Below, piece by piece: positions 10,370-64,000 of a stretch of DNA of 64,000 nucleotides. Position 1 is the first letter of the stretch. Each line of letters begins with the position of its first letter. A program made the translations under genes and the position numbers. Source of the stretch: Nereocystis luetkeana (lineage: Eukaryota > Sar > Phaeophyceae > Laminariales > Laminariaceae); NCBI GenBank assembly GCA_031213475.1, contig JARUPZ010000013.1, positions 1,174,001 through 1,238,000 on the forward strand, written 5' to 3'. A model generated the notes under the pieces. It did not search any database. It saw only the letters and a program-made list of their open reading frames with translations, and was not told the DNA's origin.

Positions 10370-11600
10370 TCGGCCGCTGTGAGCGAACCTTAGAATTCCG
10401 ATTTTTATCTTCAACTCTGTCTGGGACTCCGCACGCCTTCGCTCCCCTGCCTTCGAGCTTGTTTTTCGACCGCTTTCCTCTAGAGTCGCGCGAGACGGCC
10501 TCCGACGGGTGTTCTCTCGTGCGCGCGTCTCGGAGTCTCGCGCCACCGACGAGCCCGGCGACCCCGAACTTGAGGGATGTTTTCTGGAAAAAGGAGACAC
10601 GGACCTTCTATTTTCTGTGGTCCTGGAAATTTGTTTAGGTGTTGTTGCTCCGCGAAGAGCTTCTCGTGACAGACTTCAGCTTACAAAGTAGTAGTAGCTT
10701 TTTACCGACTGCATCAGATGCTACCGCTTTCTACCGACTGCCTTGCTTTGCGGGCCGCCGCCATCGGCCTGTTCGAACCCCTCGGTCCTGCCTTTCTCGG
10801 TGGCTCCCTTCCCTTGCCCCTGTCTCTTCGCCGGACGACTACACGCGCCTTCTCGGCGTATCGCGCAGTTCTTGGTACAAGATCGTTGCATATCCCGGTG
10901 ATTTTGCTTTGTTGTTTTTTTTTAGTTAAATTTTGATAACTCGGCACATCTTCTCTTTTCCCCCTATTAATACTACTACGTACATATCGCTCTACACGGG
11001 TTGCTCGTGTACTCAGGATGCGAACGATTGAAGGGTTCATAATTTTTGCGGAGGATTTTTTATTGGTTCAAACTGACAGTCCCGTTTTCGACCACGAACT
11101 CGAAGAATATTTTGCTGCGTAGAGGAGACACGGAGCTCTATCTTCAGTTTGCGCGAAGACTTCGTTATCGATTTAGTCTTGAACTTTGTCTGGGACTCCA
11201 GACGCCTTCACCTCCCTGCCTTCATGCTTGCTTTTTCGACCTCGATACGTATTGACAATCTCATGTATTCTTGGGTGCGATATCTATAAAAGCTTATTAT
11301 TTACCTGGTATACTGCTGTATACGTGACAGACTTGATCTTATCTCATTTTCTCTCCGAGGTTCGATCTCTCGGCCTTGCTGATGCTACCGCCTTCTCCCG
11401 ACTCCCTTGCTTTGCGGGCCACCATCGGCCTGATCGACCACCTCGGTCTTCCCTCACTCGTCGGCTGCCTTCCATTGCCCCTCTCTCTTCGACGGACGAC
11501 TGCACGCGCCTTTTCTCGGGGTATCGCACCGTTCTGGGTACCGGATCGTTGTATATTATCCCGGTGATTGCTGTGTTGGTTTTAGAACTCGGCACGTCTT
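10370..11600 (+). repeat. diverged tandem duplication, about 0.67-0.77 kb period
   Basis: Copy 1 (about 10370-10930) and copy 2 (about 11145-11590) share GTCTGGGACTCC.CACGCCTT, GATGCTACCGC.TTCT, CTTGCTTTGCGGGCC, TCTTCG.CGGACGACT.CACG, TATCCCGGTGATT. Copy 2 lacks about 100 bp. Several frames are open through both; conservation alone does not show coding. Confidence 0.85.
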
Positions 11601-11874
11601 CTGTTTTCGCCGGGATTCAGACTGAGAATACTACCCATGTCGTCAGCAGTAGGAGTACGGGTACTTTGCGGTTGTTCTGTATTGCCGATCGATATCAGGT
11701 ATCAGGTATCCGGTAGGTGCTCGATACTGCTCATCATACTTGCAGTATCTCGATTGCTGCTTGCTGTTCTCAGGATTGAGTGCGATAATGCGCGTACAGT
11801 ACGCGTCCTGTTCTCGCAGCAATTTATGCGTACGAGTATACTGCAAGTTGCTGTCTGCTGCGATGCCGTACATA

Positions 11875-12062
11875 CCGCTGCTGCTGCTGCTGCTGCTGCT
11901 GTTGTGCTGCTGCTGGTGTTGCGGCTGGGTCTGCACAGTAGCAGCAGCTGCAGCAACCGACCGCAGCAGCAGCGGTGCCTGCTACTACTGCTCTTGCTGC
12001 TGCTGTTACTGCTATCTTTTAGGTTATGCTGCAGCGCTGCAGCTGCTATCGCTTTCATGTCC
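11875..12062 (+). repeat. (CTG)n/(CAG)n microsatellite region
   Basis: CTG7 at 11878-11900 followed by mixed CTG/GCA/TGC. No exon context. Confidence 0.92.
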
Positions 12063-13059
12063 GGTAGAGGTCATCTCCTCTGCACAAGCTCCGTTGGAAG
12101 TAGGTATACAGCTCGCCTTAGAAAGGGGTGATATAGGCGTGGGTTTTGGGTACTTGGCAACTGGGCAGCAAAGGGGCAACAAAACTACAGAGCAGTATAC
12201 TACCATCGTGAACAAAATTAAAGAAATCTCAGTCCTGTGAGAAACGCCTCGGAACTGAGCTGATTTCTGCCCCCGACAGCAGCAACTGCTCCAAATTATC
12301 GATGATCTCCTGGCCCATAAGAAATAATAGACGGATGTGATTTCCGGGCTTCAGAGTACAAGGCTGAAAAAGACAAAAATAATGACGTCCCAAATAAATG
12401 TGCTATAAAAGTTGGTCTATAAAATTCGAGTGAGACAGATAGATCCGAAAACTGAGAACTGACACTCGGCAGTGCCTTTTCCCTGCATCACTTGGCAGTG
12501 CCCTGATCCCGTTCGTAACAAGATCGAATGGTACATTTATGTCAACTTCCTTAAAAGTAATCACACGACTTGGCACTGGGGTATATTTTCCTATCCGGAG
12601 CATGGGTGCCGGCAGGCACCCATGCGGAGCCCTTGTATATATATATATATATTCCGGTGACGAACGCGCACTGACCAATGTAGTCGGGTAGATCACCCTG
12701 AGGGACGGCGATGGTGCCGTGCTAGCAGGCATCTACTTGTGTGCCTCATACCGGTAAGCCGCAGAACCGCTGTGGCAACTTTGCTGCATTTCGTCCGCCC
12801 GAACAAAAAAAAAAAAAAACAAAAAAAAAAAAAACAAACAAACAAACAAACAACTGACTCTGTTTCCAGCACGATCCCGTACGTACTTCTTCCTTTTTTT
12901 TTTGTTCTTTCTTCTTTCAAATTTAATAGTTTTGCCCTTCGTATCCGTTCTCCTGATGCGCGAGTACATCTAAATAGCTGCGTATAATTTCACCAAAACC
13001 AACTTCGAAGATCCAGGAACGGCTGCACAAGGTGCGCCTCCGGTCCGTTCTTCTCACCG

Positions 13060-13093
<34 letters not shown>

Positions 13094-13299
13094 GCGATCG
13101 TAGCACGAACAGTGCAGAAGAACTTTCCCCATATAAAGTCGCGAGGAAAAGAAGCCGTTCATTGGTTCCATCCGATTGTCCCTCGCACGTCCCATCAACA
13201 CACCAAAGGTTTCATTTTTTTTTTCTAGTTTTGAAGAACGACAGATCTCTCTTCTTAGTCGAGAACCTCTCCACTACCGCCCTCGATTCACAGGCTATA
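12063..13299. other. no gene recognised; A-rich runs
   Basis: A15/A13 tracts with (CAAA)n at 12805-12852 and A29 at 13060-13089. Otherwise unassigned. Confidence 0.5.
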
Positions 13300-13408
13300 T
13301 TAGTACGGGGGAACCTAGTTAACAGGACCTATGGTGTACATAAAAACCTATATATTTAACCATTTTTACTAACAATATTTGGTCCTGTTAACTATGTTCC
13401 CCCCGTAA
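13300..13408 (+). mobile_element. family A MITE
   Basis: TTAGTACGGGGGAACC to GTTCCCCCCGTAA flanked by TA. Interior CATAAAAACCTATATATTT is standard for the family. Confidence 0.92.
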
Positions 13409-15099: not shown

Positions 15100-15728
15100 A
15101 AATTGTCTTGAAAATGATGTCTTAGAACCGGAATTGATATTGTATACCTGGTAGCTTTTAGTACGTCGGTGCCAAGCTATTTGGTTTCGTACATATTAAG
15201 CCAGTACTTGGTACGTATTTGTCCTGAAACCGATCGCGCTTGAAAACAAAGAAAAAAATCCTTTAACAGGTGTTGCGTGGCTTCGGAGACCTAGATGTGT
15301 GTAGGAAAGCTCGCGGGAAGTTACCGAAAATCCAGCTGTAATGGACAGGGCTTGAGCACCATCAACCATTTATCGAACGCTTATCATAACGCTATCTCGT
15401 ATATCCCTATACGGCAAACACTCAAGCCAGGCTTCTCTATTCAGCAACCGACTGAACCAGAAACCACAGAAACACAAAAAACACGGAAATACACACCCAA
15501 CACAACAATACAAACACACACACGAAACGCAAACCACCGAAACTACAGCAGTAGAAAGAAAAAAAAACATACACACATACACGAAAAAAAAAAAAAAACT
15601 GACGCCTCCCCCTCCCCCCCGAGAAAAAAACACACACACACACGAAAAGAGCTTTGAAAAAACAACCCCCCAAAATATGCCAGGCAGGAAACATACCAGG
15701 CAGAAAACCACAGGGAACCGTTGCTTAC

Positions 15729-21800: not shown

Positions 21801-24800
21801 TTGGATTACGGTGTCAACACCAAACGGTGATTACAATTCCGCCCATCTATTCCATATTCCAAGACAACAACGGTATACCCATCAGGCAGGTCATGGATTC
21901 CCGCCCACAGTACAGTATTGCGGGGGACCATAGTAAATAGGACCTACGTATGACACAAAAACCTATATATTTACCCATTTTTACAAACAATATTTGGTCC
22001 TGTTTACCGTGGTCCCCCGCAATAGGTGGTCCCTCGTAGTGCCGGCTGAGGAGTGTTACTGCCGGCTGCCCACTATAGACAGCGCCTGCAGAATCGCTTG
22101 GCACAGATGAGACTATGGCCAGTGTGGTGGTGTGCTATTAATAGTGCCGGTCCCTCTGTATAGTGCCTGTATTGCTGGCTGGCGCGTACAGACCCTACAG
22201 AGGGGCACCACGGTTTACGGGCTCGTCTTTTTATGTCTCGCCTTCTTCGAATGTACGCGCATGTACTCTATACTCTATACCATGGGTATTGTCCCGGTAT
22301 TCATTTGGTTCCAATTGATATGGGATGGTCATACCACATCTCGCTGGTACCGTTCGCTAGCGTGCAGCCAGGTAGTGCTGCGGTGGTGCGCGTACCATGA
22401 TGATGCGCCTGTTTTTTATTTTCTTCCCCAAGATAACCTCCTTTTTAGCCAGTCTTGTGTACCACGGCGCTAAATGTAAGGGAGACCAGCTGGGGTGAGA
22501 GCATCGTCATCATCGCCACCACAGCCACCGCTACCACCACCACCACCACCGCCGCCGCCACCCCAATCCTACACGGCACAGTACACCCTCACCCCTTCTT
22601 GTGGTCCTTGTCGTCAATCGTAGACCTTACTTGCCCCAGATGTCGGATGTTCACGCCGCACCTGTCCCCCAAAGACGATGCACACCGCACCATCACGACC
22701 ACGCCGAGCCGAATCACAAAGAAACACGAGAACGGAAGGAGGGAGGGGGCGGGAGACAGAACACGCGAGAGGAAGGGCGGGGGGGGGGGGGCAAAGAAAC
22801 ACGCCATGGAGAGAGGAGGGGAGGGGAGGCGCGGGGGAGCAAGACGCCGTGCGTGAAACGTCTGGAGCATGGATGCGGTGCGAAACGGAACATGCCGAAA
22901 CGATCGGTCGAACCGTCGAACCGATACTACAGCGCGGACATGCATCGACTAAAATCATCACCTACCGGTACCAGGTACGACATAAATATTAACAAGGGTA
23001 AGGAAAACACCACCAACCACACCCCCACCACCACCACCACCCACTACCAAAAGCAACCCTAACCCTTGCATCACCAGAAGGCCCCACCACTTGTTGAACT
23101 CCCCCCCCCCCCCCCCCCCCGCCCACCCGGTGGCGCCCCGCGCTTGGTGCAAGCAATGCCCGCCGGGTCGGTAAAAACCCTACGTACTCTTTCCCGGCAT
23201 TGTAGGGAGGAGGGTCTCTATGGTCATACGACTGCGGCCATGCCCGGCATGAGTACACCCCGCCCCCCGCCGGTGGCCACAGACGGGGAGACAGGAAGGG
23301 GATGAGATGAGCAAAACGAATCTATGCAAAACGTGGCAAAATAATACCGCGCGGCCAAAACTTTTGGAGGCGTTTCTAAACAGGGTGCTTCATCTCGAGG
23401 AAGGGACGCACGTTCAAGGCGGGCTACGGATGATTACGCCCCCTTCAACCCCCCCCAAAATCAGCCCATTCGACGCTGCCATCCATATGCAATAAAACCC
23501 GCCTGACAAGCGGTTCTTCGGAAGATGCAGGTCACCCTCCATGCGAATCGCTCAAAACCTCACGGCGCTTTGCGCTCGGTGCAAGGAGTGTGTGTCTGAT
23601 CGGTGGAAACCCGACAAGCCCCGTCCCGTGTGGGGACGCGAGGGTCTATGGTAATACGACTGCGGTCCTGCATGACATGAGCACACCCCTCCTCCCTACC
23701 GCACTGTAGAGGCATGACTCTCTCCTATACCGCACTGTAGAGGCATGACTCTCTCCCCTACCGCACTGTAGAGGCATGACTCTCTCCTACATCGCACTGT
23801 AAAGTAAGGACTCCCTCCTGTACCGCACTGTGACTCTCTCCTGTACCGCATTATAGAGGCATGACTCTCTCCCCTACCGCACTGTAGTGGCATGGCTTGA
23901 GTAACACTCCCCGCCCCCTCACCTGTGCAACTCGATGGGGAGGTCGAGCGAGCCATGCACCGTCTCTTGCAACGCCGACAGCCTCTCCGCCACCATCGGC
24001 ACCACGTTCTCGATCAGTATCTCTGTCGCATGGTGCACCTAAAAAAAAAAAAAAAAAGCGACAACAACAACAACAAAAGCGGAACGTACCAACATAGTCG
24101 TGAAGATGAGCGGGGCATACAGAAAAAAAGAAACAAAAGAGCGGTATATACGTACTGTGCGTACTCAGCACACAGTCGTGAACGTCAGTGGGGCACACAG
24201 CAGTCGGGCATCTGCTTAAAAACCATCCATCCGGTTCAAAACTGTCCGGTAGATGATACCAGGTCAACAGGTTCGTCACGACAAGTACACTCTTGGAATA
24301 TAGGACGAGATACATTTCCAAGTAAAATAGTGAAAGGAAAGACCCATGTGAAGAGCTAAAAGACCAGGTAAATGGCGTTTTTCACGGGGTGGTGTTAAAG
24401 ATGGGTATCCCTGGTTTTTTTCTAAGGCACCGCGTTCTGAAAAAAAAAAAAAAAAACTCTGTCGCATCACGCACATGCAACAGAAAAAAAAAAAAAAAAT
24501 CTCATCACTACAGTCAGTACCATGCCCAAAATATGTGACATGACTTTGCAAGTATATATTACGGGGGACTATAGTTAATAGGACCTACGGTATACATGAA
24601 AACCTATATATTTAACCATTTTTGCGAACATTATTTGGTCCTATTAACTATGGTCCCCCGTTATAGTTGCTGCATGCGGCATTCATGGCTGACGAAAAAA
24701 CGTACATAAGGGCGGCTTTGTTTGAGTAAAAGCCTGTACGTGCTCGTGAAGGTGGGTGGGCCTTAAGGCAAAAGGCATCCCGTTCAAAACAAATCTATCT

Positions 24801-27800
24801 CCGTTGGGTCATGCGCATACAAACAGAGAAAAAAGCGGTATAGTCGTGAGGGTGGGGGTGGGTCAGGAGGTTTTCAAAATATCACGGGTCGGACCAGGAT
24901 ACCCTGACCCTGACCCGACCCGACCCGACCCGACCCGACCCGACCCGCGAGGTTTGACTTGACCCCTGGAAAAAAAAAAAAAAAACTGATATACACCAGG
25001 TACTATATATTATAAACCTGCATGCCCGACCCGACCCGATCCGACCCGCGAGGTTTGGCCTGACCCGTGAACCCTGATATATACCAGCACAAAACCTGCA
25101 CACAGCTCGCCTCTTGGTTCCGAATGGAACGATCGGGGTCGTCCTTGCAAAACCCGCTGAGCGCATCCGGGGAAAGGGGCATGTGCGGCCAGTCCGCCGT
25201 TGTGCTTTCCGGGGCGCCTTCCTGCCGCCCCGCACCCCTAACCAAGCAGTCCCGTCCCTCGCTCAACGTCTGGAGAGATACGGAAGGGGGGTGCATGTGT
25301 ACCGGCGGAATATCAATGCGTCGCCGGTCGTATACACCTGGCACCTCGCATGAGAATCGACTGTCGAAATATCGAAATCGCACCAATTTCACTTTTTTCG
25401 TGTTTCGCTAGTCGGTATCGTATACATATATCGAAATCCGTGAGTATCGTTCGATACCCACCACTGTAAATATTTACTCAGGTACCAGGGGTAGGATTTT
25501 TTCGTTGAACTCATGTATATCGGTACCTCATGTCTCGAACGCCATCGTCGTTGTCGGTATTGCATTTATCGAACTCCACTAACACAATATATCGGTATCG
25601 CATGCGCCAGATATGGAAGTATCGAACTACATTATCGTTTGATATCCTGCACTATTTAATTTTTCGTTGAATTTATGTAGATCGGTATCGGTATCGTATG
25701 TCTCGAAGTCCAGTATCGTTATCGGCATTGAAACCCATTCACGATATATCGGTATCGTATGTATCGAAGCCCATAAACGATATCGGTATCGCGTATATCG
25801 AACTCCAATATCGTGATCGGTATCGGTGTCGAACTCCATTATCGTTATGGGTATCGGACTCCAGGGTCGCTATCGCTATCGGTATCGAACATCGTCATGT
25901 ATCGGTATTGCATGTGCCATTGTCGTTGTCGGTATCGGCATCGAATTCCACTATCGTTATTGCTATCGCGTATATCGAACTCCAATATCGTGATCGGTAT
26001 CGGTGTCGAACTCCGTTATCGTTATCGGTATCGGACTCCAGGGTCGCTATCGGTATCGGTATCGAACTCCAATATCGTCATGTATCGGTATTGCATGTTC
26101 CATTGTCATTGTCGGTATCGGCATCGAATTCCACTATCGTTATCGGTATCGGCATCGAATTCCACTATCGTTATATCGGTATGTATCGCACTCCATTATC
26201 GTTGTACCTGGTATATCGGTATCCACCACCTACTAAACCTATCATACCTGCTCGGCCGGAGCAGGGTAAAACCTGTAAGACATGTTAGCACTGCTGTTTT
26301 GCTCCAACCATATCCCTCTTGGTCCGGCCCGCCCGCTCGCTCCACCTGAAAACAACACACGCCGAGCCCACCCAGCAATTAATGATTTGGATACTAGTTA
26401 AAACGCTTCGCCCCCGCCAAAACATCACCAACAGCAGTATATGCCAGCTACCAGGCACCTGATACATCCGAGGGTTGGTTGAAAATCAATTTCACGACTA
26501 CTGCAGAGGAGACGTCATCACCAACTGTTGTAGATAATTTAGCACCTCATCTGCCGCTGCGGGATGTTGTATGTGCGGGGGGAAACCTTCAAGGTACAGC
26601 CCCAACCAAGGAAACACGCACTATTAACATTAATATACACGGATACTCTCTGCACGAGGCCGTATCAAACCCGTACTCGCAATACGCACGATCGAGTTAT
26701 CGAGTTCACACACAACTTGCAACTATGAGTTTCGACCAAAATCTTCGACATCACAGCTGTTTTCAATGTTGATTTCGAAGACATATCGATCATGCGGAGA
26801 CTACACGGGTCCCCCCCCCCGCCACATGAGGCGAAACATTTGAACCGAATCATGGAAGTGGGGATCGATGAATCTCTGCCCGAGGTGTGAATCCTTTGTT
26901 TTTGCAGTCCAGCCGACGACGCCAATGTGGGGCGGACGCCCCGGGGAGGTCCCTCCCTGCTGTGTCTGTTGTTGGTCGGTGTGTATCTCGGGTCTACAGT
27001 GCACGGAGCGAAGTGACAGACACATACTGGATGTGTCCTTGGCTTGTGTACAATGAGGCAGGACTATTCAGGGGGAAGGGAACGTGATATCCACAACCCA
27101 CAACTCGGGGGCACGATCATCATGTGGAACCACGACTTAGCCTTACTGGTGTGCAACCCAAGGTCGTGCAAAAGAAGGCATGGCAAGACAAGACCACCGA
27201 CACAAGACGAGACGAGACGAGACATGGTGAAGCAAGACAAAACAGGACAAGAACATGCGAGGCGAGGCCAAGGCAAGGCCAAGGCAAGACAAGACAAGAC
27301 GAGGCAAGACAAAACGAGGCAAGACAATGCCTACATGAGACAAAAACAAGACAACAAACAAAGGAAAAAGACACAGAACAAGACAAGACAATCACAACAA
27401 ACACAAACGCAAGGAAACCTCAACACAACGTAACGCATCCCAAGGACGGAGACAAAAACAAGATGACAGACATAAAGACAAGACAAGACTCAAGACAAAA
27501 AAAGTACATAAAACAAAAAAACGGGGAAGCGCCGACAATTGCCGAACGCAGGTGCGTACCAACAGTATCGGGCGGTACCACGAACAACAGAGCACGGGGG
27601 TGCGTGCATAGGTACCTAACACATACCTGCGCCGTTTCCCATGTTGCGATCGCTCTCTCTCGCGATCAAACTTCCCCGCCTCTCCATGCCCGGCTCCTAC
27701 CTCGACCGATCGCAAACGAAGAGAATAGAGCGAACCGAAAAAAAAAAAACGGGGACGGACCGGGGGAGCAAAACAAAACAAACGACCGAAGAGGCAAACG

Positions 27801-30800
27801 AGGCACAGCGGGACAAAGTGACTCGCCCGATCGCAAGGGAGGGTTCTTCACGGATCATGATCTCACCCCGCGGGTCGGGTCAGGACGTTTTCGAAATCTC
27901 ACAGGTTGGGTCGGATCGGATCGGATCGGGTCGGGTCGGGTCGGGTCGGGCCACCCTTACCGTACCCGACCTGGCCTGACGGGCGAGGGTTGACCCGACC
28001 CGTGAACAGTCTTGAAAGCGAGGGGAACAGGGGAATATCGAACGGCCGATAGCAAGGGAGAAAAAAAAAAAAGAAGAAAAAAAAACGGCCGATCGCTATG
28101 GGAGAAAATTAAAGCGAACGGCCAATCGAAAAGACCGATCGCTGTATACTGGAGGAAATAAAAAAACGAATGGCCAGTAACCGTAAAGGGCTCAAAGTAA
28201 AGCGAACGGGCTGACAAAGGCAACAGGGGGTACAGAGAGAACGATCGAACAAGCCAACAAGCCAAATAAAATGACTACCGCGGACCACCCAAAACGTTGA
28301 AAGTACACACCACAAAACGCCAAATAATATCATACAACACAGTAACGTATGTCCCACCCGGACAAGGACGCCGTGAGCGCCCAAACGTTGGAGGTGTCTC
28401 TTTTAACCCCTTTAGAACTCCAGTCCCGTTTTGGGGACAAACCACTCAAATACCCAGTCTTTTGTCCCCAATTGCCACCAAAACGAGACTGCAGTGCTAA
28501 AAGCGTTAAGAGTAGGAAAGGTGCTCCGTATCGAAAGGGATTTGTCGTCGATGGTCAAATGACCAAGGCAAGCAACAATCGAGTACCCCCTCCGACCCCG
28601 CGCTCCCTCTCACCCAACGTATGGCATACGACTACGGTCATGCATGAAATGAACACATGATTACTCCTCCCCCCCCCGCCCCCCTCCCACCCCGCGCCAC
28701 CACATCAAATCCACGAACTAGAGCGTATAAAAAGCGAAAGCTTTTACCCCCCCCCCCCTTGCCTCCGCCCTCAAGCCAACAGCACAAAAAACGAAACCCA
28801 CGCAACCTACCGTCAAGACTTCGTAGCTTGATCCATGCAGCTTGTATCGCGAACGTCCATCACGCATGGGGCAGGAACGGAGGAGGCAGGGGAGGCGCGG
28901 GGGTAGGGGAGGAGGGGGGGGGGGGGGGGGGGCACACATCACGGCAGGTAAAAACCCAAGGGGGAGAAGGCACGATACCCGTCACCGCGGCTTTTGTCCA
29001 GAATGCCGGTGAGGGTACAAGTTCTAATCCTAATATTGATAATGGTTTATTAATAGTACAAGTTGCTGGAGAGTTGAACGCCACGCTAAAACAGTAGCAA
29101 TACCATTAACATTAACACTGACATCACTACGAAGGAGCACCTCTCGTGCCTGGACGACTGTGGCCGGCGTGGCGCGCGAGGGCCGGCACCGCCCTGCGCG
29201 CACCCCCCGCCCTCCCCACCATCACGGCGGGAAAACCCCGGGGCCGAACAAGTCCCAGCGCTTTCCCGGCAAGGCGCGCACAGCAGCAACTTACCACCCT
29301 AACCTCCCAAGTGGTTGCAGGCAAAACAATCATACAGATACATCGACACTACCACCGTCCCCAACATCATTCCGTTTTGTATAGTATATATATATATGTA
29401 TGTATATAATATATATGCGAAATATATATCTACAGAAAACAATTCCGTTCAGGACAAATTTATAAGGATTGTTCAGGCATTCAAATCAAGACCGAGCGTT
29501 TTTTCTATTTCAGAGCGATACAAGCGTATCTAGTGCCTGAGCCGAGGAATCTTGGGGGGGGGGGGGGTTGCCGCTGCATCACCGCAAGAGGTATGGGGGA
29601 AGCAGAGGAAGGCGGGGGGGGGGGGGGGGGGGGCGGGTGTGAAGGAGGGTCGCTGTACGTACACTTGACGTGCTTCACAGCAAGTGTGACGTGCCCCCTC
29701 CCCCCCCTCCCCCCATATATTGCATACCTGGTATATAATATATACTGGTACATATAAGGGGGGTTTCACCGCGGCCGGCGGCTCCGCGTATGCCCGTAAT
29801 GGCGGAAGGCGTACCGGTATGCAACTCGAGGCTCTTAGTGCGGCAGTACTGCCAAGGGGTGCACTAAAAAACAACTTATGAGTGAAATGGAGTAAAACGC
29901 TGGGAACAAAGGAAAAAACGACGACCACCCGCCATCCGGCGCGAAACACATTACTCGTTCGTACAACAGCAAGCACCACATTTTTTTCATTTTAAAACTG
30001 TCACGTACGAGACGCTCGGTGTCCGTACTGTATACTTCGTGTGCAGATAGCCACAAAACAGTTAGTTGAGCAGCAGCCGATCGAAGTAATCGATAGCGCG
30101 AAGCGCCGGCGATTACGTAGTGCGGCAAGCAGAAGCAGCAGCATAGCGTACAGGTACGCATCGTACGAAAACTACGCTGGGGCGAGACCTCCGCCGAGAC
30201 GCCAAACAAATGCCAACTACGAGGCGGTACTCGTACAGCTTCCGAAGCAGATGGGTTCGTCATTCAACTTCAAGATGCGAATACACATCACCGAGAGGGG
30301 GTGACTTGCATAATTACCATTTTCAGGTGGATTAGAGGCAAAACAAACCAGGTACCAGGTATCGCAGACAAGCAAGAGCAGCAGCACAGTAGTAGCACGT
30401 GCATAGCGGCAGCACCAGAGCAGCGGCACAACAGCGGCAGGAGCAGCCGCAGAGGCACATCATGTAAGCCTGAGACTGCCCCCGGCATATCAGTCGAGGA
30501 AGGGGAACCCGGTGGAGCACGAGGAGGAAAGGTATAATGCTGCTGTATATCCCAGGCCGACCTACTCCGTGAGGCGGACTGCGTGAGCAGCAGCAGCAAC
30601 AACAACAACAACAACAACAACAACAGAAAACACGGCAGCTGCACAAAGCAGCAGCAGCAGCAGCAGCAGAGCAGCGTCAGTATCAGCAGCAGTGTAGCAC
30701 ATCACGCACGCCCGAGGCCGCCCTCGGCACAGCAGTCGACGAGGGAAGGTAAAACGGCGTCCCCGATGGAGCTACTTCGTACTCGATAAATCTCGTCCCT

Positions 30801-39800: not shown

Positions 39801-42800
39801 GGTATTGACAGACTTGGGAGATTTGCATCTCTAGTTGAGACATTCAGTCTGTGCAAATGTTGTACAGATTCAGGCTACAAGTAACAGGGATTCAGGGATA
39901 GAGCCCCTAAATTCTAGAGATTCACATATTTATAGACAGAAAGCGAGAGATATTCAGAGACGTAGAACAGGGAACACACATATCTATTTACATTATTTTC
40001 CCAAGCATACCAGGTATCATAAGATTCCCCTTCGAGGTGTGGCTTGACCTGAAACACCGGGGAAGGCAGGGCAAGCCGTATACGAAGTACCCTAGGCTGG
40101 TGCTACAGTGGTGGTGGTGGTGGTGGGGTATGATGCCATGCTTTGAATTACCTCGTCTAGGCGTCTCTCGGGAGTGGCCCCGTTCCTCCCGAAAAGAAGG
40201 ACGTGTCTAGAGTTTGCTGGCGCAGCGCAACCCAATCCGAAGGTGGTGCATACTGCTGTATAGCGAAATCAACACGGGTGACAAGAGGAGAAGTCACTCG
40301 GCCCCGTGGCTCTGAGCGGTTGAATACCCCGGGCAGATCGTATACAGATCATGTGCAGATCATCGGTGCCCCATTCAATGATCTAGATCATTCAAGGCAG
40401 AAAAAAATATATTCCCGATTTCGTATTATCTAGCTGCTCCTGTTGCCGGGTGGAACCCCGCATAATCTGCATTATGTAGCACGTATTTCCTGGGCAGGAT
40501 CTGAGACTGCACAGATAGATCCTGCACATACAACCTCTCACACAACGGTAGGCGAGGAAATAGATCATCTACAGCAGATAAATAGATCATGATCTGTGCT
40601 ATTAATAGTTAGGCATAAAAAAGGTCCCAACAGTGACCCCGCCTGCCTGATCGCTTAAAACCCGACGCGCACCGTCCCGGCATTGTGGCGATGCGAGGGT
40701 CTATGGTCATACGACTACGGCCATGCATGACATTATGAGTACCTCCCCGCCCCTCCCCTACTATATAGCTTGGGTTGGCGTCGATGGGCAACGACACTGT
40801 AAAACATACTGCTCACTCGTACGTGAGCTAGACAACCAGGGGACCATTTTTTTTTTTGGCGGTCGCCCACAGCTGGTCGTCGAGTGAGATCAAATGTGCG
40901 AGGTAAGTAATCTTTACTCCGCACAAGCGCATTGATCGTACTACGTAGTGTTCAAGGTAAGACACCCACGAGGCAGTTACATAGTACTCTCATTGCTGTC
41001 TCTGGAAGTGGCTACACCGGAAATCATATTAACGCCTTGAAGCTATCATCCACACGCAAGTCCGCCTCACAAGCGGTTTTTATTAATAGTAGGATGCAAC
41101 TCCCCCTTCATGCGACTCGCCGGACACCTCACGGCACTTCACGCTTGGTGCAAGCAAATGTCTGCCTGGTTGGTGAAAACCCGACATGCTCCGTCCCGGC
41201 ATTGTAGGGATACGTGGGTCAAAGGCCATACAACTACGGCCATGCATGAGATCGAGTACATCTCTCCTATCGAATACACACCCCCTCTCCCATACCCCCT
41301 CCCCGTACGAGGCGTGGTCACTACTGACCTGGGCGGTCATTCGGAAGCCCTTGAAGTCGATGAGGCACTGCAGGGCGAAGTGCAACCCGCGAATGCGCGT
41401 GCCCAGGTAGTGCGTCGCGCCTCTCAAATCGTGTCCCGCCCCTGCGTGGGAAAGATAGGTGCATCCGAGAGCACGAAAGAACGGGGGGGAGAGACAACGG
41501 GGACGAAAGAGGCCAAGGAAAGAACGGAGGCGTTGTGTATGTATGGCTCGCTTGCGCGCACGCGAAAGGAAACCAGCAACAGAGCAAACATCGGAGACAA
41601 AAAAAAAGCAACTATAATAGCAGCGGCAACGCCACCCGACACAAGCACCAGCATCAAAAACAACAACGATACCAGCAGCAAGAGCAACAAACAAGGACGA
41701 AAAACACAGAGAAACAACCCCCCTGCGCCCAAATCGACCTTGAAAAAACACCAAATAAAAAAAAGGCGTGATGTCGCATGCATACAGACAAGAAAAAGTA
41801 GGGGGTGGGGGGGGGGGGGGGGGGAAACAAGACAAACCGTACAGGGCACTTGGGAAACGAAATAAACGCCCCTTGCGGGAGGGGAGGAGGGAGGGAGGGG
41901 GAGGGAGCGCAGCGTTCGCCTGACACGAAAGAAAACCAACAAACACACACACGTCGACACGCGAGAGACGTGAAAAAAGCAACCGCTTGCGGAAGGAACA
42001 CGCGGTGCTTTCCCGCGACGCGTCCACAAAAGTAGCCAAGACACAAACACACCCCCACCCACCAACCCACCTTTGGCCGCCGCCTCATCGTTGCCGCAGT
42101 AGGGCCCGCTGGACCCGTCGGCAAGCTTGAACAGGATTCCTCGCCACACGAACTTCTTGCCGCCCGCCACTCCGCCGACCGCTCGCGGTCTGAGGATGCA
42201 CACAAAATATGTCCAGTGCGCACCATACACACGGTGACGACACCGAGGTTTAGGCCTAGAACACTATCGATCGAGTAGTGACGGCGGATGACGCGTACAA
42301 CGCATGCCGCACACACAGCGTATGAAGCCCATGCAGCGCATACAGCGCATGCAGCGCATACAGCGCATACAACACACATACAACACACATACAACACATA
42401 ATATGAGCACGAGGGGGGGGGGGGACACACAACGTACCCCCCCCCCACCCCATGTAATATAATTCGAAGTATGGTAACAACGCAATGAGCGCCGAAATGT
42501 TGGAGGTGTCTCCGCCAGGAGTAGGAACAGTGTTCCGTGTCGAGAGGGATGCGTGGCCAATGGTCAAATTGCCAAGGCAAGCAGCAACTGAGTACGCCCC
42601 CGCCCGCATCCCGCCATCTCAAGCACCTCCCTCCCTAGGCAATGCCTGCCTGGTCGGTGGAAACCCGACATGCTCTGTCCCGGCATTCAAAGGATGTAAG
42701 AGTTATGTTCTCGCAATAGATGTTAGTATCCCCCCCCCCCTCCCGCCTCCCTCTGCCCCCTCCAAATCCCTTCTCTCGCCCACCGCTCCACCCCCCCCCG

Positions 42801-43754: not shown

Positions 43755-44061
43755 CTGCCGCCCAACAACAACAAAATGGTCGCGGTACGTAAAACACACA
43801 CACAAACACAAAAACAACAAAAACAAAAGCCAAGGGCGAGTTTCAGGGTGGTTAGGTATGTAGGTTGTTTCGCAGGAAAGGTACCATACGTGGAGCTACG
43901 CAAACCAGAGGCTACCCGACTCGTATGCCGAGCACCTTACCAAAACATCATATTCATCGTACCAGGTACGATCTATTCCGAAAACTGGAGAAGGGTGCTG
44001 TATGGTGTCGGTAGGCGGTAAGACCGGGAAAAAGTCAGGTTTCTCTCTTCCCGGGTCACGA

Positions 44062-44258: not shown

Positions 44259-44525
44259 GAAAATAAAACGTGCTCGTAGGTAGCTACAAGGTTTCCCGTT
44301 CGGAGGCATTCGGATGAGGGGAGACGCGAGGCAAAAATCTGATGACGGGCGTGTGCAGCTGAGAAACGAAAGACCCACCGCTGTAAAAGTATTGATTTTT
44401 TCACGAGCCCAAACAACGAAAGGAATGAGGAACGACCCCCGGAAGGCAAAAGCGGTACGTGTACGCATGCACGTACGCAAAACATCCTGATCGGTTACCC
44501 GGGTACATACGTACCCTAAAGCACA

Positions 44526-44622
44526 TTAACCCTTTTAGGGCTGCAGTCCCGTTTTGGGGACAAATTACTTATAATTTGACTGGTTTGTCCCCAAAACGGG
44601 ACTGCGGTCCTAAAAGGGTTAA
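44526..44622 (+). mobile_element. family B foldback element, best-preserved copy
   Basis: TTAACCCTTTTAGGGCTGCA to CGGTCCTAAAAGGGTTAA, both TTAA borders intact and arms nearly perfect. Ends CCCTTTTAG/CTAAAAGGG after TTAA fit the piggyBac pattern of CCC-ended TIRs at TTAA (established for the superfamily; assignment here is inference). Confidence 0.93.
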
Positions 44623-44699
44623 AGCACACCAAGAAAGAGGTTGGTCGGTCTCGTGTCCTGCCGCGCAACGCTGGCCGTAGCAAAATCCTATCGCAGAAT

Positions 44700-46510: not shown

Positions 46511-47052
46511 TTTACGACAACGTCAGAGATGCTGCTGTATATGGTATATTGTTATGCAGTTAAGCAGAGTAGACAAGGCCAAGCCATGCCATCGTGGGTG
46601 GATGACGAGCCTGATTTGCTTGTTTCGTACCAGGTATTGTCTGACGCATCGCTTACGGGGGTGGGGCATAGTTGCCGAACGCAGGACGGAAATGGCAGAC
46701 GGGGTAGCAAGGTACCACAGTGGACCGATTAAGGAAGAGTGGGAAGAACCAGGCTACGCTACTCGTACCACAAACTGCTGAGGCTACCTGGAGGGTGCTT
46801 TGTGCTTCGGCTTGCTTGTTATTTTAGCCGGTTACTTTGAAGTGTATGCCACATCAGACACGACATTTTTCAATATTTCCCCCCCCTTTTTTTCTCTTTC
46901 GATTCGTTTCCTCTGTTTTCTGGTTCTCATTTTTTTCTTTTCTTTTTTTCTTTTCTTTTCTCTCTTCCAAAGAATGTGTACGTGGTGCCTGTCGTATCCG
47001 GTGTGTTCTTCACATTAAACTGTCGTGTCCAGTATGATGGTATGGTATTGTA

Positions 47053-48060
47053 TTGTTGTTGTTGTTGTTGTTGTTGTCTTCACATTAAATCGTCCTTTCT
47101 ACCCAGCTTCATCAGCACACCCAGTGTCCGTCCTGATTCCCTATCCTAGAGAGATACCGATTCTGTGGCCACAGAGTGTGAGACAGAGGAAGACCAAAAA
47201 TAAAACCAAATCGCAAATTCAAGTGTCAAGCAAGTGAAGTGTCAGCGTACCGCATACGAGAACACAACAACACAAGCAAGACCGGAAAAATAAGAGCAAA
47301 AGACAATAAACAAAAAAAAAAAAATCTGAAACGAAAAAAAGAAGAAAGAGAAAAAGAAAAAACAGAATGCAAACGACGTAAGGACTTCAGAAAGCCTGCT
47401 AGACGGACAACATACGTGCTCAGGAAGGGCAGGTATCTGCTGCACGGACGAAGCAGCACGAAAGAGAGGGAGATACAGGCAAAAGTCTGTAAAGAGCTAG
47501 TCGAACCGATACCTAGCCACCCGGTCTATCATTTCGTTTCTGCATTCGTCGACAGCTGTATCAGAACAGCTGCCCCTCCACCGTCCCCCCCTCCCCTTGT
47601 CGCCATTCTTGGCGTCCTCTGCTGCGTGGCGCAGCCGGCTCTTCTGTGTTTCGTCCATGTGCCACCTCGCCATGAAGCAGTCCGCCGCTTCGACGACCCC
47701 CCGGTACCACTTCCCGCTCTTCTTAGCCGCCCTCGGCCATAACAACGTCTCTATTCCGAACAGCAGGGGGGAGCTTTCCGTGGACCCCTCGGTGGCTTGA
47801 AAAACCCTGAGGTCGTCTGCTAGGCATTGGGCCCAGTTCTTTTCCGGTCGGCCTCGTCCCGGGTTTTCCCCACCAGCCATCGTCCCAAACATCACCCGGT
47901 GGGTCAGCCGCTCATTGGTCGTCCGCTGTACGGCCCCCGCAAAGAGGAGGCGTCGTTTGCGGATGGTCGCCTAAACGCTCTCGCATTGTGCCTTTTTGAG
48001 GGCCTTGGCGTACGACATGAGGTGGTCAGTGCGTTGCCGGCGCTGGAAGCCAATGATCCG
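47053..48060 (-). pseudogene. LINE, 3' part: end of reverse transcriptase ORF, 3' UTR and (AAC)n tail
   Basis: Continues the RT frame beyond the family A insertion: RIIGFQRRQRTDHLMSYAKA is a typical C-terminal segment of non-LTR elements. The frame has a TAG at about 47972 (after CESV), then continues TIRKRRLLFAGAVQRT to the stop at 47497. Downstream on the minus strand is a 3' UTR ending TTTAATGTGAAGAC then (AAC)6-7 near 47055-47080. A single nonsense codon and the 5' truncation make it a dead copy. Confidence 0.9.
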
Positions 48061-48062
48061 TA

Positions 48063-48167
48063 TTACGGGGGACCATAGTTAATAGGACCAAATATTGTTA
48101 GTAAAAATGGTCTAGTATGTAGGTTTTTATGTATACCATAGGTCCTATTAACTATGGTCCCCCGTAA
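48063..48167 (+). mobile_element. family A MITE inserted in LINE reverse transcriptase ORF
   Basis: TTACGGGGGACC to GGTCCCCCGTAA with TA duplicated at 48061-48062 and 48168-48169. Taking out the element and one TA joins the two halves of the RT frame exactly (…HHKLLL / RIIGFQRR…), proving the TA target duplication. Confidence 0.96.
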
Positions 48168-48169
48168 TA

Positions 48170-49421: not shown

Positions 49422-50029
49422 AAAAAAAAAGGAGAACAGATTGTATCACAGGTACCGGAGGTCTCGAACCGACCAGGTACCGAAAAGCTTCTTCCCAACA
49501 GGCAGTAAGTACGAGTACGAAATCGCAACAATATTTCAAGAGAGATTCCTACGAACCGAACCGAAACTACATAAAACAAAATAATAAGCAGGCCGCTACG
49601 ACGAAGCAAAGCCTCATACCACAACCCCCCGCCGTTGCAATGTAAAAAAAACCTTGCATCTCTACAAACACGACCCAACAGGTACAGGGGACATGCAGGA
49701 TAACAGAAGCCGAACAACATTTCCCGACGTCAGACACAACAGAACAAACCTGCAGATGGTTGCCGGAGCATACGCTCTGTCTCGGGACACGCATGGGACG
49801 ATTTTCTATTGGTCTTCAAAAAAAATATCATACCATATCGGTATAATACCAGGTATATAACAGTTCTCATGTATCAAAACACTTCGTACGACACAAAACA
49901 GACAGCCGTACGAAGGAAATAAAAGACGACTGGGTACGTACTACGTGTACGTACTATTAATACGTGTACGTACTACGTGTACGTATGCACGTATTGCTGT
50001 TTCTTTTTAAAATACGCCTTCACAGGATT

Positions 50030-50265
50030 GAGGATTTCGTCACAACTCATCCTTGTTGTTGTTGTTGTTTTCACGTCAAATCGTCTTTTCTACCCAGCTT
50101 CGTCAGTACACCCAGTGTCCGTCCTGATTCCCTATCCTCGAGAGATACTGATTCTGTGGTCACAGACTGCTGTGAGGCAGAGGTAGACCAAATATTAAAA
50201 ACTACCAGGTAAATCGCAAATTCAAGTGTCAAGCAAGCGAAAAGTCAGCGTACCTTGACACCTGA
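50030..50265 (-). repeat. LINE 3' end fragment with TACCAGGTA
   Basis: Matches the LINE 3' UTR at 47085-47240 (TCGTC.TTTCTACCCAGCTTC, GCAAATTCAAGTGTCAAGCA), except for 7 extra nt forming TACCAGGTA at 50203-50211. An (AAC)n tail sits at its left edge in complement. Confidence 0.85.
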
Positions 50266-50640: not shown

Positions 50641-50939
50641 ATATTATTCATAATAGAGATACTACGTTGCCACGTACCTGGTAACTGGTACCTGGTACCT
50701 GGTATGCAGTAAGCACAGCAGTGGGCAATGCAATGCCATGTCACCATACTATTAATAGATACGACAGGAACGACATACGCATTCTATGGAATAGATAAAA
50801 CGAAAGGTACGTACGAGTACATCGCCAAAAAATACAAGATACCACTGGTACAAAATACGATAACAGCTGCACACAACCCCTTCCGAATTCCGAAACAGCA
50901 GCAGCAGTGGCGAAGAACACGCCAGCTTGCTTTTATCAA

Positions 50940-51325: not shown

Positions 51326-51529
51326 AGGAATGGTGTACTACTGCTGTACCAGGTATTGATGTAGTTCGGGCACGAGATTCATCATTCCCCATTCCCTAAC
51401 CACCACGCAGAGGCCGATGCTGCTGTACTCGCGCATCATCTTCCGTTTTCTCTCTGGTATCCCACAATATATAAAGGTACCAGGTATATATTAGCGGAAA
51501 GCGCGAGAGCGTGAGTGAGCTACCTTCGA

Positions 51530-51890: not shown

Positions 51891-51968
51891 GTAAAAATAG
51901 TTAAATAGTTTGGTTTTTGTCTCTACCATAAGTCCTACCAGGTATCTACTATGGCCCATCGTAATACT
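51891..51968 (+). mobile_element. family A right-half fragment with TACCAGGTA
   Basis: Resembles the family A interior and right end (CATAAGTCCTA … TCTACTATGGCCCATCGTAA). It is interrupted by 7 nt (CCAGGTA) at 51936-51944, absent from all other copies. Confidence 0.85.
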
Positions 51969-52021
51969 TGGGTTTTGGGTGATTTGGCCCCAAAACGGGA
52001 CTGCAGTGCTTCCTAAAAAGG

Positions 52022-52118
52022 TTAACCCTTTTAGAACCGCAGTCTCGTTTTGGGGACAAACCATTCAAAATTCAAGTAGTTTGCCCCCAAAACGGGACTG
52101 CGGTTCTAAAGGGGTTAA
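52022..52118 (+). mobile_element. family B foldback element with TTAA duplication
   Basis: TTAACCCTTTTAGAACCGCA to GGTTCTAAAGGGGTTAA, directly after the split family B copy of 51706-52020. Confidence 0.92.
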
Positions 52119-52300
52119 CACAAAAGAAAGCTACCGCGCGAATACGTACACCCCCTGATAATCTCGGGTTGCCACTTTTTGATTCCTGCGGTCCCAAAGT
52201 TTTTGATCGTCGCTTCTTCTCTTCGTTCGTAGTCGTATTTTTGTTTGCGCCACTACTACTGCTGTTCTGCAGCCGCAAAAAGGTTATATACTATCAGAAA

Positions 52301-56600: not shown

Positions 56601-57190
56601 CTAGTCCAGGGTCCTCAGGTTCGTGCTGCTTACCCCAGCAACAAACATTAACTGGGCGTCAAGTCTAGCCAACTCATATCCGCGGCAAATATGAAAAACG
56701 ATTTTTAATTTTTCAACCCCCAGATTGCAGTTGAAGACGGCGTAGCCTATAGAATACCAGGTAGGTCGTAATGATCTACTGTAGAAATGCCGACTGCTGA
56801 GGCAGAGCAGACAGACCGCCATGCTCGTGTGTGTGGGGGGGGGGGGTCGAGGTGGAAACTCGTGCGATACGATTGACAAAACGGAACATCTCTGCCGTCT
56901 GGGGTGGTCTGAGCCAAAGCCACGACTTGAGTCCAGCAGGCAGGCAAGAGTCAAAACAAAGGGGCATATGCTGCTGTGTTCCACAGCGGTACGTAACGCT
57001 CCAACCCACCTCTCATCCCTCCTGACACACGATACACCCTTGCGCAGGACCCAAAAGCCCACGCTTGCCGCCCCTCTGGCGGTCGCCGTGCGACGCGACC
57101 TACAGAGTATTATGATGAGGAGCCCTTTACAAAACTCCTCCCGTTTCCGGGACAAACTTGCTTGGAACTACGTAGACCCATCGAAGTAAT
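56600..57190. other. no gene recognised
   Basis: A 184-codon minus frame (56601-57155) crosses a G12/C12 run and has no recognisable domain. It lacks the repeat signatures of its surroundings. Confidence 0.4.
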
Positions 57191-57555: not shown

Positions 57556-57784
57556 TACGGGTACGTAGGAGCTACTTGCAGTACCTTTTCTGCGCCCCCT
57601 CCATTGCCAACAGCTGCTTTGAAAAATCGCGGGCTCAGCCTGGCGCACAATCAATCCCACAGCATAATACATGCGTACCTGGTATCATACGTGTCAGAAT
57701 GGTGCACTTTTTCAAGATAATCCGGTTTGAGGCCATGCTATACCAGGTATATAGCAAAAGAGATAAATAAGATCACAGGTGGAT

Positions 57785-58996: not shown

Positions 58997-59099
58997 GCCC
59001 TTTCAGAACTGCAGTACCAGGTATCATCTTGGGGACGAACCACTCGACTTTTGAGTAGTTTGTCCCCAAAACGGGACTGCGGTCCTAAAAGGACTGTAA
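58997..59099 (+). mobile_element. family B element carrying TACCAGGTA
   Basis: Left arm GAACTGCAGTACCAGGTATC; other copies read GAACTGCAGTCCCGTTTTGG. Removing 7 nt (CCAGGTA) restores equal length. Right arm GGACTGCGGTCCTAAAAGG. Confidence 0.9.
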
Positions 59100-60680: not shown

Positions 60681-60754
60681 TAAATGACTGCGGACATGGC
60701 GAGTACCAGCATTTTTTGGAGTACTGAGTCTCAAGCGTACGAGGAGCTGAAATT

Positions 60755-61245
60755 ACTTACCAGGTACTCGTGTAGTCCTCACGCTTCCCGAGGGTACCCG
60801 GAAATGACTGGGGACTCTCGCGGGGTACTGCACAGGTCCAAATGTCTGTGACCTACCTCCCCATTCCCGAGAGTACGAGGAGCTGAAAGGGTAGAGTCCT
60901 CGCGAGGACCGAAGGTACCAGGAGCTGGAATGACTGAGTACTCGCGAGTCCCCATGGTACCGGAGGCTGAAATGACTCGAGTACTCGCAAATTCGGAGGA
61001 CTGGGTACTCGCTCCCAAGGGTGCAAAGAGCAGCAATGACTGAGTGTGTTCCAAAGGTACCAGGAGCTGAAACGACTGGTACTCGCGAGTCCCGAGGATG
61101 CATGTACCACGGGACCAAAAGACTCGAAACCCGCGAGTCCCAAGGATACCAAGAGCAAGTACGACGAGTACTCGCGAGTCCCTACCAGGGGTCGAAACGA
61201 CTCATCACTGGTAATGGTACGACTGGTACTCGCTGGCAAAGGCCC
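60755..61245 (+). repeat. GTACTCGCGAGTCC minisatellite
   Basis: Units of 35-50 bp: ACTCGCGAGTCCC.AGGTACC, AGGAGCTGAAA.GACT. The internal CTCGCGAG is itself palindromic. Confidence 0.88.
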
Positions 61246-61316
61246 TCTAAGTTGCCAGAAAATTGCCGTCGAACGGAGGTACTGGACGCCGACGCGAGTG
61301 TGCAGAATGGCAGGGA

Positions 61317-61893
61317 AGAGGGGGGGGGCGAAAGGGGGACGAGGGGGGAATGGCGGGGGGGGGGAGGGGAGGCGGTCTGCCCAACAGACTGAAGCCTGGT
61401 TATGGCCATCATCGTCATGATGCACTCCTTTCTTTGGGACCCAAGTAACTAGCATGGTGCCATCTGGGCAACTTTGCGTGTCTGTATGCTCCAGTGCCTG
61501 CCTTTCGTATTTTTTTTCCCCCCCGCCCGTGATTATCGCTTTTTTGTCCCTTTTTTTTTCATTTTTCTTTCATTCCCGTTTGTACCTCTTTGTGTCATTG
61601 TTAGTATGGTCCGTTTTGCCTTTTTTTTGCGTTTTGCTATCTGCGTCTGTTTTTTTTTTTTTTTTTTTTTTGCTTAGCTTTATCTTCTTTTTAGGTTTTT
61701 GTCTGCTATTAATAGTCTCCTTTTTGCTTCCCTGGTGTCCGCAGTGGTGGAGTGCGTATGCTTGTTTTTTGTTTTTGCCTCTGTTTTTACTTGCGGTATT
61801 TCTTCCACTCCAGAGTTATTGGAGCCTGTCCTGCGACCACGGACTGCATTGAATTGTGAGTTAATGCGAGAACAACAACAAACAACAAACAAC
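61317..61893 (+). repeat. 550-bp dispersed repeat with (AAC)n tail, copy 2
   Basis: Same as copy 1, with length differences in G, T and AAC runs and a handful of substitutions. Both contain TATTAATA at the same internal position (52673 and 61707), so that footprint predates their divergence. Confidence 0.9.
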
Positions 61894-62112
61894 TGGCTGC
61901 TGTATATAGTTATACGTGCCCCCGGAGGCACATGCAGAAATTTCGCAGGATTGTATCACGTATCACGTAGATAATGGTCCTAGAATATATACCTGATACC
62001 AGGGCAATACCCCGCCGTCGGTCGGAGACACGTCTCTATTGCGTGCCTCCAGGTGCACTTGGCCTTTTCCAAGCCGTACGTGGTGCGTGTCCTGGTGTGT
62101 GTTGTGCGGCGC

Positions 62113-62206
62113 GTTCTTTTAGAACCGCAGTCCCGTTTTGGGGGCAAACCACTCAAATTTCAAGTCGTTTGTACCCGAAACGGGACTGCGATCCTAAAAA
62201 GGGTCA
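62113..62206 (+). mobile_element. family B foldback element
   Basis: TTCTTTTAGAACCGCAGTCC to GACTGCGATCCTAAAAAGGG. Confidence 0.88.
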
Positions 62207-62689
62207 AACCGTTTCTGCCCACGTACATCAGAAGTAAACATGTTAAATAAAAGTATTAACAGCAGTGTCCGTCCTGGTCTTACGGTTGGTTATATCCCAA
62301 CTGGGACACCACCCCTTGAGTAAAAAAGAGGGGAAATACGGATTTTTTTACGGAGTTATGGCAACACTGTCATTGTATTCGCGAGTTTGTTCTCAACATA
62401 CCTGGTACAACATATGCCCAATGCCAATGTACTCGTACTCCGGCTCAATTCGTAGTCGTAAGAATTGACGTTCCGATTTGTTTGTTCAGGTCGCCTGTTC
62501 TTTCCGCCGACGGAAGGAAATACGCTCAAGACGCTCAAGATGCTCAAGATCTGATTGCGCACGAGTAACCATTACTCACAATGGTTGGCTCCATGCCGTC
62601 GAGCTCAAATGTCAAGTATTTTGTATTCCTTCTGCGTACGTACATACAATGCCGTATGTCCAGGGTACGGTATGTAGCAGCCGGTCGCC

Positions 62690-63025
62690 CCGGTGGTTCA
62701 AGTGGTTAACCTCGAATTCTACTTGTTTGAGTCCTGGGTTCGAGCCCCAGGTGGGTCGGACTTTGACTTTATTTGCAAAATAAAAAAAAGGGATTCAATT
62801 GTTGAGAGCGCCTTGCAGCGTGGGTAGGCACAATTCGATGCGAGTCGACGAGGGAAGAAAAGGCTGAAATCTTCTCGCGATAAAAATAAAGGCACGTACC
62901 GTAGCGGGAAGGGGGGAGAAGAGCCTGCTATGTGACCCCGGATCTGAGTTACGAGTTGGAAGGAGAGAGAGAAGAAGATGTGCGAAGATATTGAATGGGA
63001 TGAGCAAAAAAAACAAATAAAAAAA
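62690..63025 (+). mobile_element. tRNA-derived SINE, full-length copy
   Basis: The head contains a Pol III A-box-like TGGTTCAAGTGG (62694-62705) and a B box GGTTCGAGCC (62738-62747) within a T-arm CCTGGGTTCGAGCCCCAGG. The body has GTTGAGAGCGCCTTGCAGCG, CGATGCGAGTCGACGAGGGA, GGCACGTACCGTAGCGGGAA, and the tail is A-rich (AAAAAAAACAAATAAAAAAA). A second copy in reverse is at 60330-60680. Confidence 0.92.
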
Positions 63026-63029
63026 TGTG

Positions 63030-63365
63030 TGTGACATCTTCACATTCAATCGTCCTTTCTACCCAGCTGTTCGTCCTGATTCCTTATCCTACAGGGGATA
63101 CTGGTCACAGAATGTGAGACAGAGAAAGCCGAGAAGCGACTTTTTTTTTCTCGCAAATTCATGGGTAAAGCAATCGAAGCGCCAGCGCATCCGGTACGAA
63201 AACACAACGACACAAGATAAACCTGGAAATAAAAACAAAAAGACAACCGGAAATTCTGAAACGAAACAGAATACAAGTTACGGAAGGTCAGAAAGGCTGC
63301 TACGTACGTAGAAAGAAATCATACGTACTCAAGGACAGATTGCTGCATGGACAAAGAAACAAGAA
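63030..63365 (-). repeat. LINE 3' end, longer copy
   Basis: About 240 bp alignable to 47085-47340 (CACATTCAATCGTCCTTTCT, GAATGTGAGACAGAGAAAGC, GAAACGAAACAGAATACAAG). It follows the SINE of 62690-63025. Confidence 0.8.
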
Positions 63366-64000
63366 GGAGAGGAAGATACCGACATACCAGGTAAAGGAAC
63401 ACCATGGGGTATGACAGTGTATAACTCACCCCCGGTAATACTATTTTGTGTTTCGTGTTTTGACCAACCGAGGTGGTATACGGCGGCGGGGGTGTATACA
63501 CCGTGATACTCCCGGTGAAAAAGTAGGTGGTTGTTCGGCACTTCGCATCATTCACCACCCCTGGGTGCTATGTACAGGTTTACTATTAATAACTGTATGG
63601 GTGTGATAGTAAAGGGTGGTAATGCTGTTGTAGCACTCGTTACAAACGACATTCAACCTTCAACATTCAAGAACAGAATACAATGGCGATGAGTCAACAC
63701 CAATGTCGACCACCCCCCACCAACGGACAGAGGTTGACGATATTTCAAACACCCTTCTGCGAGAGTTCCTAGCGACAACCACCAGGCATGCTACAGCAGT
63801 GTCTTCCTAGGCGTCCACAACAGATTATTTGGGGCGCGGCGACTGGATGAACAGGCGCTTGACATCGCCACCTTCAGTATTCTGAGAGCCAGCTTGTTCA
63901 AGGACACCGAATACAACCACGAGTTCAGTGCAAACTCGTTTGGGATGATAATATTGGGGCAATAGCCCACGGCGGAGGCGATAGACTACACTCACAGGAA

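Follow-up and report, generated by a model that had tools for sequence, protein, structure and literature searches.

The window analysed here, a stretch of 64,000 nucleotides from the brown alga Nereocystis luetkeana (contig JARUPZ010000013.1, abbreviated C13; C13:1174001-1238000 of the 465-Mb assembly), contains a reverse transcriptase and miniature inverted-repeat transposable elements (MITEs) of two families, A and B, and is strewn with copies of the nine-base palindrome TACCWGGTA (W being A or T). This palindrome, which a first-pass annotation had read as the footprint of transposon excision, is the subject of the present report. Its copies, occurring as TACCTGGTA or TACCAGGTA, are given below by window position with no strand assigned; putative scars listed without further remark are exact occurrences of the word.

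11302..11310, putative scar TACCTGGTA
15145..15153, putative scar TACCTGGTA
22969..22977, putative scar TACCAGGTA, its left TA shared with TACCGGTA at 22963
26205..26213, TACCTGGTA within a tandem repeat, probably no scar; substitutions and gaps of 1-2 nt distinguish it from its relative
29725..29733, putative scar TACCTGGTA
30353..30361, putative scar TACCAGGTA adjoining an apparent decayed tandem unit (CCAGGTA at 30348)
38759..38767, putative scar TACCAGGTA
40008..40016, putative scar TACCAGGTA
43960..43968, putative scar TACCAGGTA
46628..46636, putative scar TACCAGGTA, empty paralogue with TG at the target; 7-nt gap in 4/4 spanning alignments (L012, 79.7% identity)
49847..49855, putative scar TACCAGGTA
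50203..50211, putative scar TACCAGGTA in what the first-pass annotation labelled the 3' region of a long interspersed nuclear element; empty paralogue inside 47092-47251 with CA at the target, 7-nt gap in 2/3 alignments and 8-nt gap in 1/3
50675..50704, several 7-nt units grouped together, with TACCTGGTA at 50675, 50689 and 50696 and an ACTGG unit after the first of these
51347..51355, putative scar TACCAGGTA
51478..51486, putative scar TACCAGGTA
51936..51944, putative scar TACCAGGTA within a family A MITE; paralogue with plain TA, 7-nt gap in 3/3 alignments
56755..56763, putative scar TACCAGGTA
57676..57684, putative scar TACCTGGTA
57741..57749, putative scar TACCAGGTA
59015..59023, putative scar TACCAGGTA within a family B MITE; 7-nt gap in 3/7 alignments, four aligned otherwise
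60758..60766, putative scar TACCAGGTA
62399..62407, putative scar TACCTGGTA
63385..63393, putative scar TACCAGGTA

All 25 coordinates reported by the first-pass annotation carry the exact word, 16 with A and nine with T at the centre, and its expectation of less than one copy was reproduced under Markov models of order 0 to 3 (0.43-0.55), order 4 giving 1.27. Among window palindromes of the form N4-N-N4, TACC-N-GGTA ranks first with 26 copies, the runner-up, TAGG, having nine; the copies are unevenly placed, with none in the first 8 kb and 15 in the last 16 kb. The genome-wide search that had been proposed, covering 465,085,209 bases, returned 182,395 copies (392 per Mb, those within amplified repeats being counted more than once) against 1,744 for the control pattern, i.e., the same word reversed and non-complemented, a scale far above the original claim. 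Of 21 sampled pieces, 20 contain the word (386 per Mb over all of them), and twenty 10-kb loci hold 3.85 copies each on average (variance 4.45). About one TA in 134 would border a copy, if the number of TAs (~24.4 million) is extrapolated from a 264-kb sample, which comprises the window and the loci L009-L028 and also underlies the centre, neighbour, flank and word counts below. The palindrome is thereby confirmed as real and hugely enriched. Literature uses of the word TACCAGGTA are apparently unrelated, among the matches listed, and no earlier genome-wide census of such scars was seen in the open-licence literature searched.

Comparison with paralogues, performed on the window and 25 further loci, provided a spanning relative for 16 of 109 TACCWGGTA sites, and at seven of these 16 at least one alignment displays a gap of exactly 7 nt (46628, 50203, 51936 and 59015 in the window; L014:656, L015:1290 and L026:8773 elsewhere). 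The target in the paralogue, read by inspection of the alignments, is TA at three of the seven, one transition off TA at three (TG, CA, CA) and TC/CC at one. The clearest example is L026:8773, aligned with L014 at 87.6% identity over 217 columns, where GGCTTATCAATC becomes GGCTTACCTGGTATCAATC. At L015:1290 the gap is found in 16 alignments, 13 being aligned otherwise. The clean relatives that the first-pass annotation had described for 50203, 51936 and 59015 were recovered within the window sequence, each with the 7-nt gap; at 59015, where removal of 7 nt was said to restore length, the gap is clean in three of the four listed window alignments, and the fourth splits it into 6+1. The copy at 26205, also counted there, is probably an exception on the evidence given in its row above. 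Thus, the conversion of TA into TA-CCWGG-TA by insertion holds for a set of sites rather than for every copy, and the matched empty sites stand to that extent.

The central base of the 106 TACC-N-GGTA words in the 264-kb sample is A in 54, T in 48, C in three and G in one. Such a near-even distribution between A and T, which bears out the ambiguity noticed earlier, fits a mismatch resolved either way, the repair itself being a presumed step. Beside 102 perfect copies, single-base neighbours include 60 transitions against 19 expected and 44 transversions against 34, the commonest decayed forms having a flanking TA changed to TG or CA (13 and 11, respectively); this pattern points to scars whose age is mixed and moderate. 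Whether the W was A or T had no significant relation, by estimate, to the side on which the extra TA lies (23 vs 13).

The flanks of the scars bear a signature of their own. A second TA starts at +6 in 29% of 204 scar flanks, as compared with 7% for ordinary TAs, with smaller TA excesses at +1 and +3; among eight other TA-bounded words, seven show 4-9% at +6, and TACCGGTA shows 21% of 38 flanks. Genome-wide, TA-N5-TACCWGGTA occurs 57,667 times in forward and 58,051 times in reverse orientation, or in 31.7% of flanks (reversed control, 150 and 153), doublets making up 15,917 of these counts per strand. At 51936 and L026:8773 the scar-free paralogue already reads TA-N5-TA, so the spacing belongs there to the target, and since TA-CCWGG-TA possesses this spacing itself, scars should be good targets. 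The tandem doublet TACCWGGTACCWGGTA was found 15,917 times genome-wide (reversed pattern, 2), which corresponds to 8.7% of copies, as compared with ~0.75% if insertions landed on TAs at random. In 59 forward doublets, among the matches listed, the W pairs, counted by eye with two pairs of rows overlapping, are AA 23, TT 17, AT 14 and TA 5, and the 19 doublets of mixed W are hard to obtain through plain duplication. Both the tandem scars and the target signature fit repeated TA-targeted insertion.

With a probability of roughly 80%, most TACCWGGTA copies are scars left by insertion and subsequent excision of a TA-specific cut-and-paste DDE transposon of Tc1/mariner/pogo-like kind. The element would insert at TA with duplication of the TA, favouring those TAs that have a second TA seven bases off. 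On excision, a staggered cut would leave a few bases of the element 5' ends on the donor DNA as 3' overhangs, which would pair except for a single A.A or T.T mismatch at the centre and then be sealed, repair choosing either A or T and so giving TA-CC(A/T)GG-TA. By geometry, overhangs of five nucleotides (CCAGG/CCTGG), four (CCAG/CCTG, with a 3-base overlap) or three (CCA/CCT, with a 1-base overlap) would all yield the same product. The excision-footprint reading of the first-pass annotation thus gains from the 7-nt insertions, the W centre, the tandem scars, the target signature and a sister scar considered below, and is so far incomplete as regards the source element, which was not established in ~356 kb.

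Several observations weigh against this interpretation. A sample of ~356 kb, with some overlap within it and equal to 0.08% of the genome, yielded no established TA-bounded element with CC(A/T) ends, which leaves the proposed search for TA-flanked elements with CCWGG or CC termini without a positive outcome on that scale. The search covered inverted ends beginning with TACC up to 8 kb apart (264 kb) or up to 10 kb apart (~356 kb), repeated words beginning with TACC, sequence adjoining scars, and large insertions between paralogues. For the same reason we infer, rather than observe, the overhang model, and with it the transposase type, the overhang length and the mismatch repair. The PF01359 profile gave three weak matches, none above the cut-off, and PF13358 gave zero at E 0.001, although a DDE_3 family exists. 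At the level of single sites, nine of the 16 with paralogues lack a clean gap, being in tandem repeats or having divergent relatives, and two of them share the 9-mer; at least one gapless paralogue was found at four sites (L013:6993, L021:1191, L027:6842 and L027:7039), for which substitution could account. Substitution, which the first-pass annotation had named as the outcome contrary to its reading, is thus a candidate at 4/16 sites, vs insertion at 7/16. The paralogues of 59015 carry TC/CC instead of TA. A strict gap census among local paralogues listed 32 distinct 7-nt insertion loci, only three of which hold this word and four another. Same-W doublets exceed one half (40/59, p 0.009), so that plain duplication may account for part of the tandem units, and the repeated counting of copies in amplified repeats means that events were fewer than copies.

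Three candidate sources were set aside. A 91-bp inverted pair in L025/L029, TACCAGGATTG, seemed ideal, but its relatives are alike on both sides of the end, which makes it probably repeat-internal; a 355-bp pair in L018, TACCTCTATCG, has matching outer flanks; and a DDE_3 element in L054 has the left end TATGACGGAGG, which places it with the sister scar system. Family A being visible in the sample, an abundant source would show too, and the TACCWGGTA source should therefore be scarce, lost or endowed with unrecognised ends; it may persist in few copies, lie outside the sample or have died out.

Among the competing explanations, it is improbable that a 7-nt tandem unit, TACCWGG, spread by replication slippage or filler synthesis with no transposon involved. 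The 15,917 doublets, longer runs such as that at 50675-50704 and the excess of same-W doublets would all be expected of such a process, but ~91% of copies have no second intact unit after them, window flanks are otherwise mostly unrelated, and neither the placing of the first unit at TA nor the A/T mixtures in adjacent units are explained. A more elaborate version of the transposon reading, to our mind a long shot, supposes that TA-flanked elements, now lacking from the tissue that was sequenced, were excised en masse and perhaps in a stage-specific manner, the scar serving as a preferred TA-N5-TA target, so that excisions would seed insertions, while 7-nt arrays build up slowly and the source hardly gains copies. 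Programmed or somatic excision proper, by which elements of another life stage would be cut from the sequenced tissue with a scar left behind (resembling the internal eliminated sequences, IESs, of ciliates, but imprecise), is in our opinion very improbable: it would suit the fact that scars far outnumber recognisable sources in the sample, though its efficiency would have to be very high, the decayed forms are common and are simpler to understand as inherited scars, and in the case of the scar TATTAATA the assembly still contains the MITE. A selected protein-binding or methylation motif arising through substitution is the least probable, since the palindromic form with its CCWGG centre and the gapless paralogues at four sites are outweighed by the seven sites at which an insertion of exactly 7 nt has TA to its left and right, and by an occurrence spread over nearly all sampled pieces and extending into MITEs.

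A second TA-bounded scar-like word, TATTAATA, occurs in 21 window copies, including those at 178, 7864, 22136, 50750 and 63584. At one paralogous site it is associated with the abundant family A MITEs, which are ~109 bp long with TA-TTACGGGGG... ends, and the two relevant window features are as follows.

48061..48169, no strand assigned, family A MITE starting with TATTACGGGGGACC; 109 bp including the TAs, terminal bases matching 22/22; likely the source type of TATTAATA scars
47361..47450, minus strand, plain-TA state of a three-state TATTAATA site, from paralogue comparison

The three-state site reads plain TA in the window, TATTAATA in one L012 copy, and, in a second L012 copy, TATTAATA whose right TA holds a family A MITE. 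The simplest order, as judged from these sequences, would start with an insertion, followed by an excision that left the scar, into which an element then inserted again. In the flanks of TATTAATA, TA occurs at +6 in 8% of 122, and an excess of its own is seen at +2. An element family of DDE_3 type, with an open frame of 493 aa, is represented by L054:529-4301 and nine near-identical places (ten copies in all, one cut by a contig end) and starts at TA; in its protein ~123 residues separate the putative second D from the E of the triad, i.e., a long insertion. The left end of the L054 element matches the family A MITE terminus at 23/29 positions, and the family is likely a helper of family A, rather than the origin of the TACCWGGTA scars.

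The 264 kb also show an excess of other TA-bounded words: TATTAATA itself (61 vs 5.0 expected), TACGAGTA/TACTCGTA (51 vs 10.3), TACWGTA (89 vs 33.8), TACAGCAGTA/TACTGCTGTA (20 vs 1.1) and TACCGGTA (19 vs 3.6), and likewise simple repeats such as TATATATA. Of the CAGCAG word, the mixed forms occur less often, TACAGCTGTA 0 times and TACTGCAGTA 4 times vs 1.1 expected, both strands being counted. Except for TATTAATA and the simple repeats, these words could likewise be scars, left by other families that insert at TA. At position 1501 of L031-L043, in a repeat, the short stretch that follows CCAATCCTGGTA varies, which gives the impression of repeated visits to that TA.

Among known systems, the footprint of Sleeping Beauty has the form TA-C(A/T)G-TA. 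Our proposed scar is like it, and like those of Tc1/mariner elements, in the duplicated TA target and the short 5'-end residue between two TAs; TA borders the scar on both sides, with the empty targets described above, and the centre resolves to either base. Sleeping Beauty is reported to leave 3-nt 3' overhangs, and footprints produced by non-homologous end joining are identical to the overhangs (PMC7827188). The scar here comprises five bases and a TA, whereas Tc1/mariner footprints are given as 2-4 bp (PMC7913693). It differs further in the TA-N5-TA target and in being known as a genomic census, without an element; DDE_1 and one DDE_3 family are present in the genome, neither linked to TACCWGGTA. 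Hence the scar works like a Tc1/mariner-type footprint, membership being unproven because the footprint exceeds the reported range and the source element was not established. For Passer, a pogo-like element, the published account gives footprints of 0-4 bp and a TA target within a palindromic preference, AAGTACTT (PMC9976928). The TA within a palindromic preference is common to both, and the genome contains DDE_1 domains, with 48 matches at E up to 10, of which 44 are over the cut-off; the preference of Passer is its own, and the ends of the DDE_1 elements here could not be read. The family A MITE and L054 are likewise TA-flanked and tied to the TA-TTAA-TA scar at one site, but their scar is another one and shows no excess of TA at +6; they constitute a sister system, not the source. 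Ciliate IESs are TA-bounded DNA removed in very large numbers, present in the germ line and absent from the soma, and only a single TA remains after them, while five extra bases and a TA remain here. Elements of the piggyBac type have a TTAA target and excise precisely; as a source type they were rejected, since the target here is TA with a 7-nt residue. Family B, a ~105-nt palindromic repeat (window 19385-19489, 44519-44623, 52015-52119 and others), several copies of which have ends like TTAACCCTTTTAG, is presumably piggyBac-like. In the main text of an Ectocarpus transposon paper the words footprint, excision and MITE do not occur (PMC12477816).

The window reverse transcriptase has, among the matches listed, relatives in Ectocarpus sp. 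CCAP 1310/34 at 64-65% identity and one at 77% in a bacterial bin, probably a contamination, with others at up to 92%; no relative was found in viral contigs. Two contigs of a JALZUO bin named Oligoflexales (L049 and L050) hold relatives at 83% and 58% identity, also probably by contamination, and TACCWGGTA has zero copies in these 6.4 kb.

If most copies are scars, the genome preserves a fossil record of very many inherited excisions by one element type, in which excisions could be counted without finding the element, amplified repeats inflating the number. The surprise lies in the scale and in the missing source. The frequency of non-copying jumps, the sealing of ends by the host and the attraction of insertions by scars would become testable, and, as the census also picks out other TA-bounded words, excision history might be readable from words alone.

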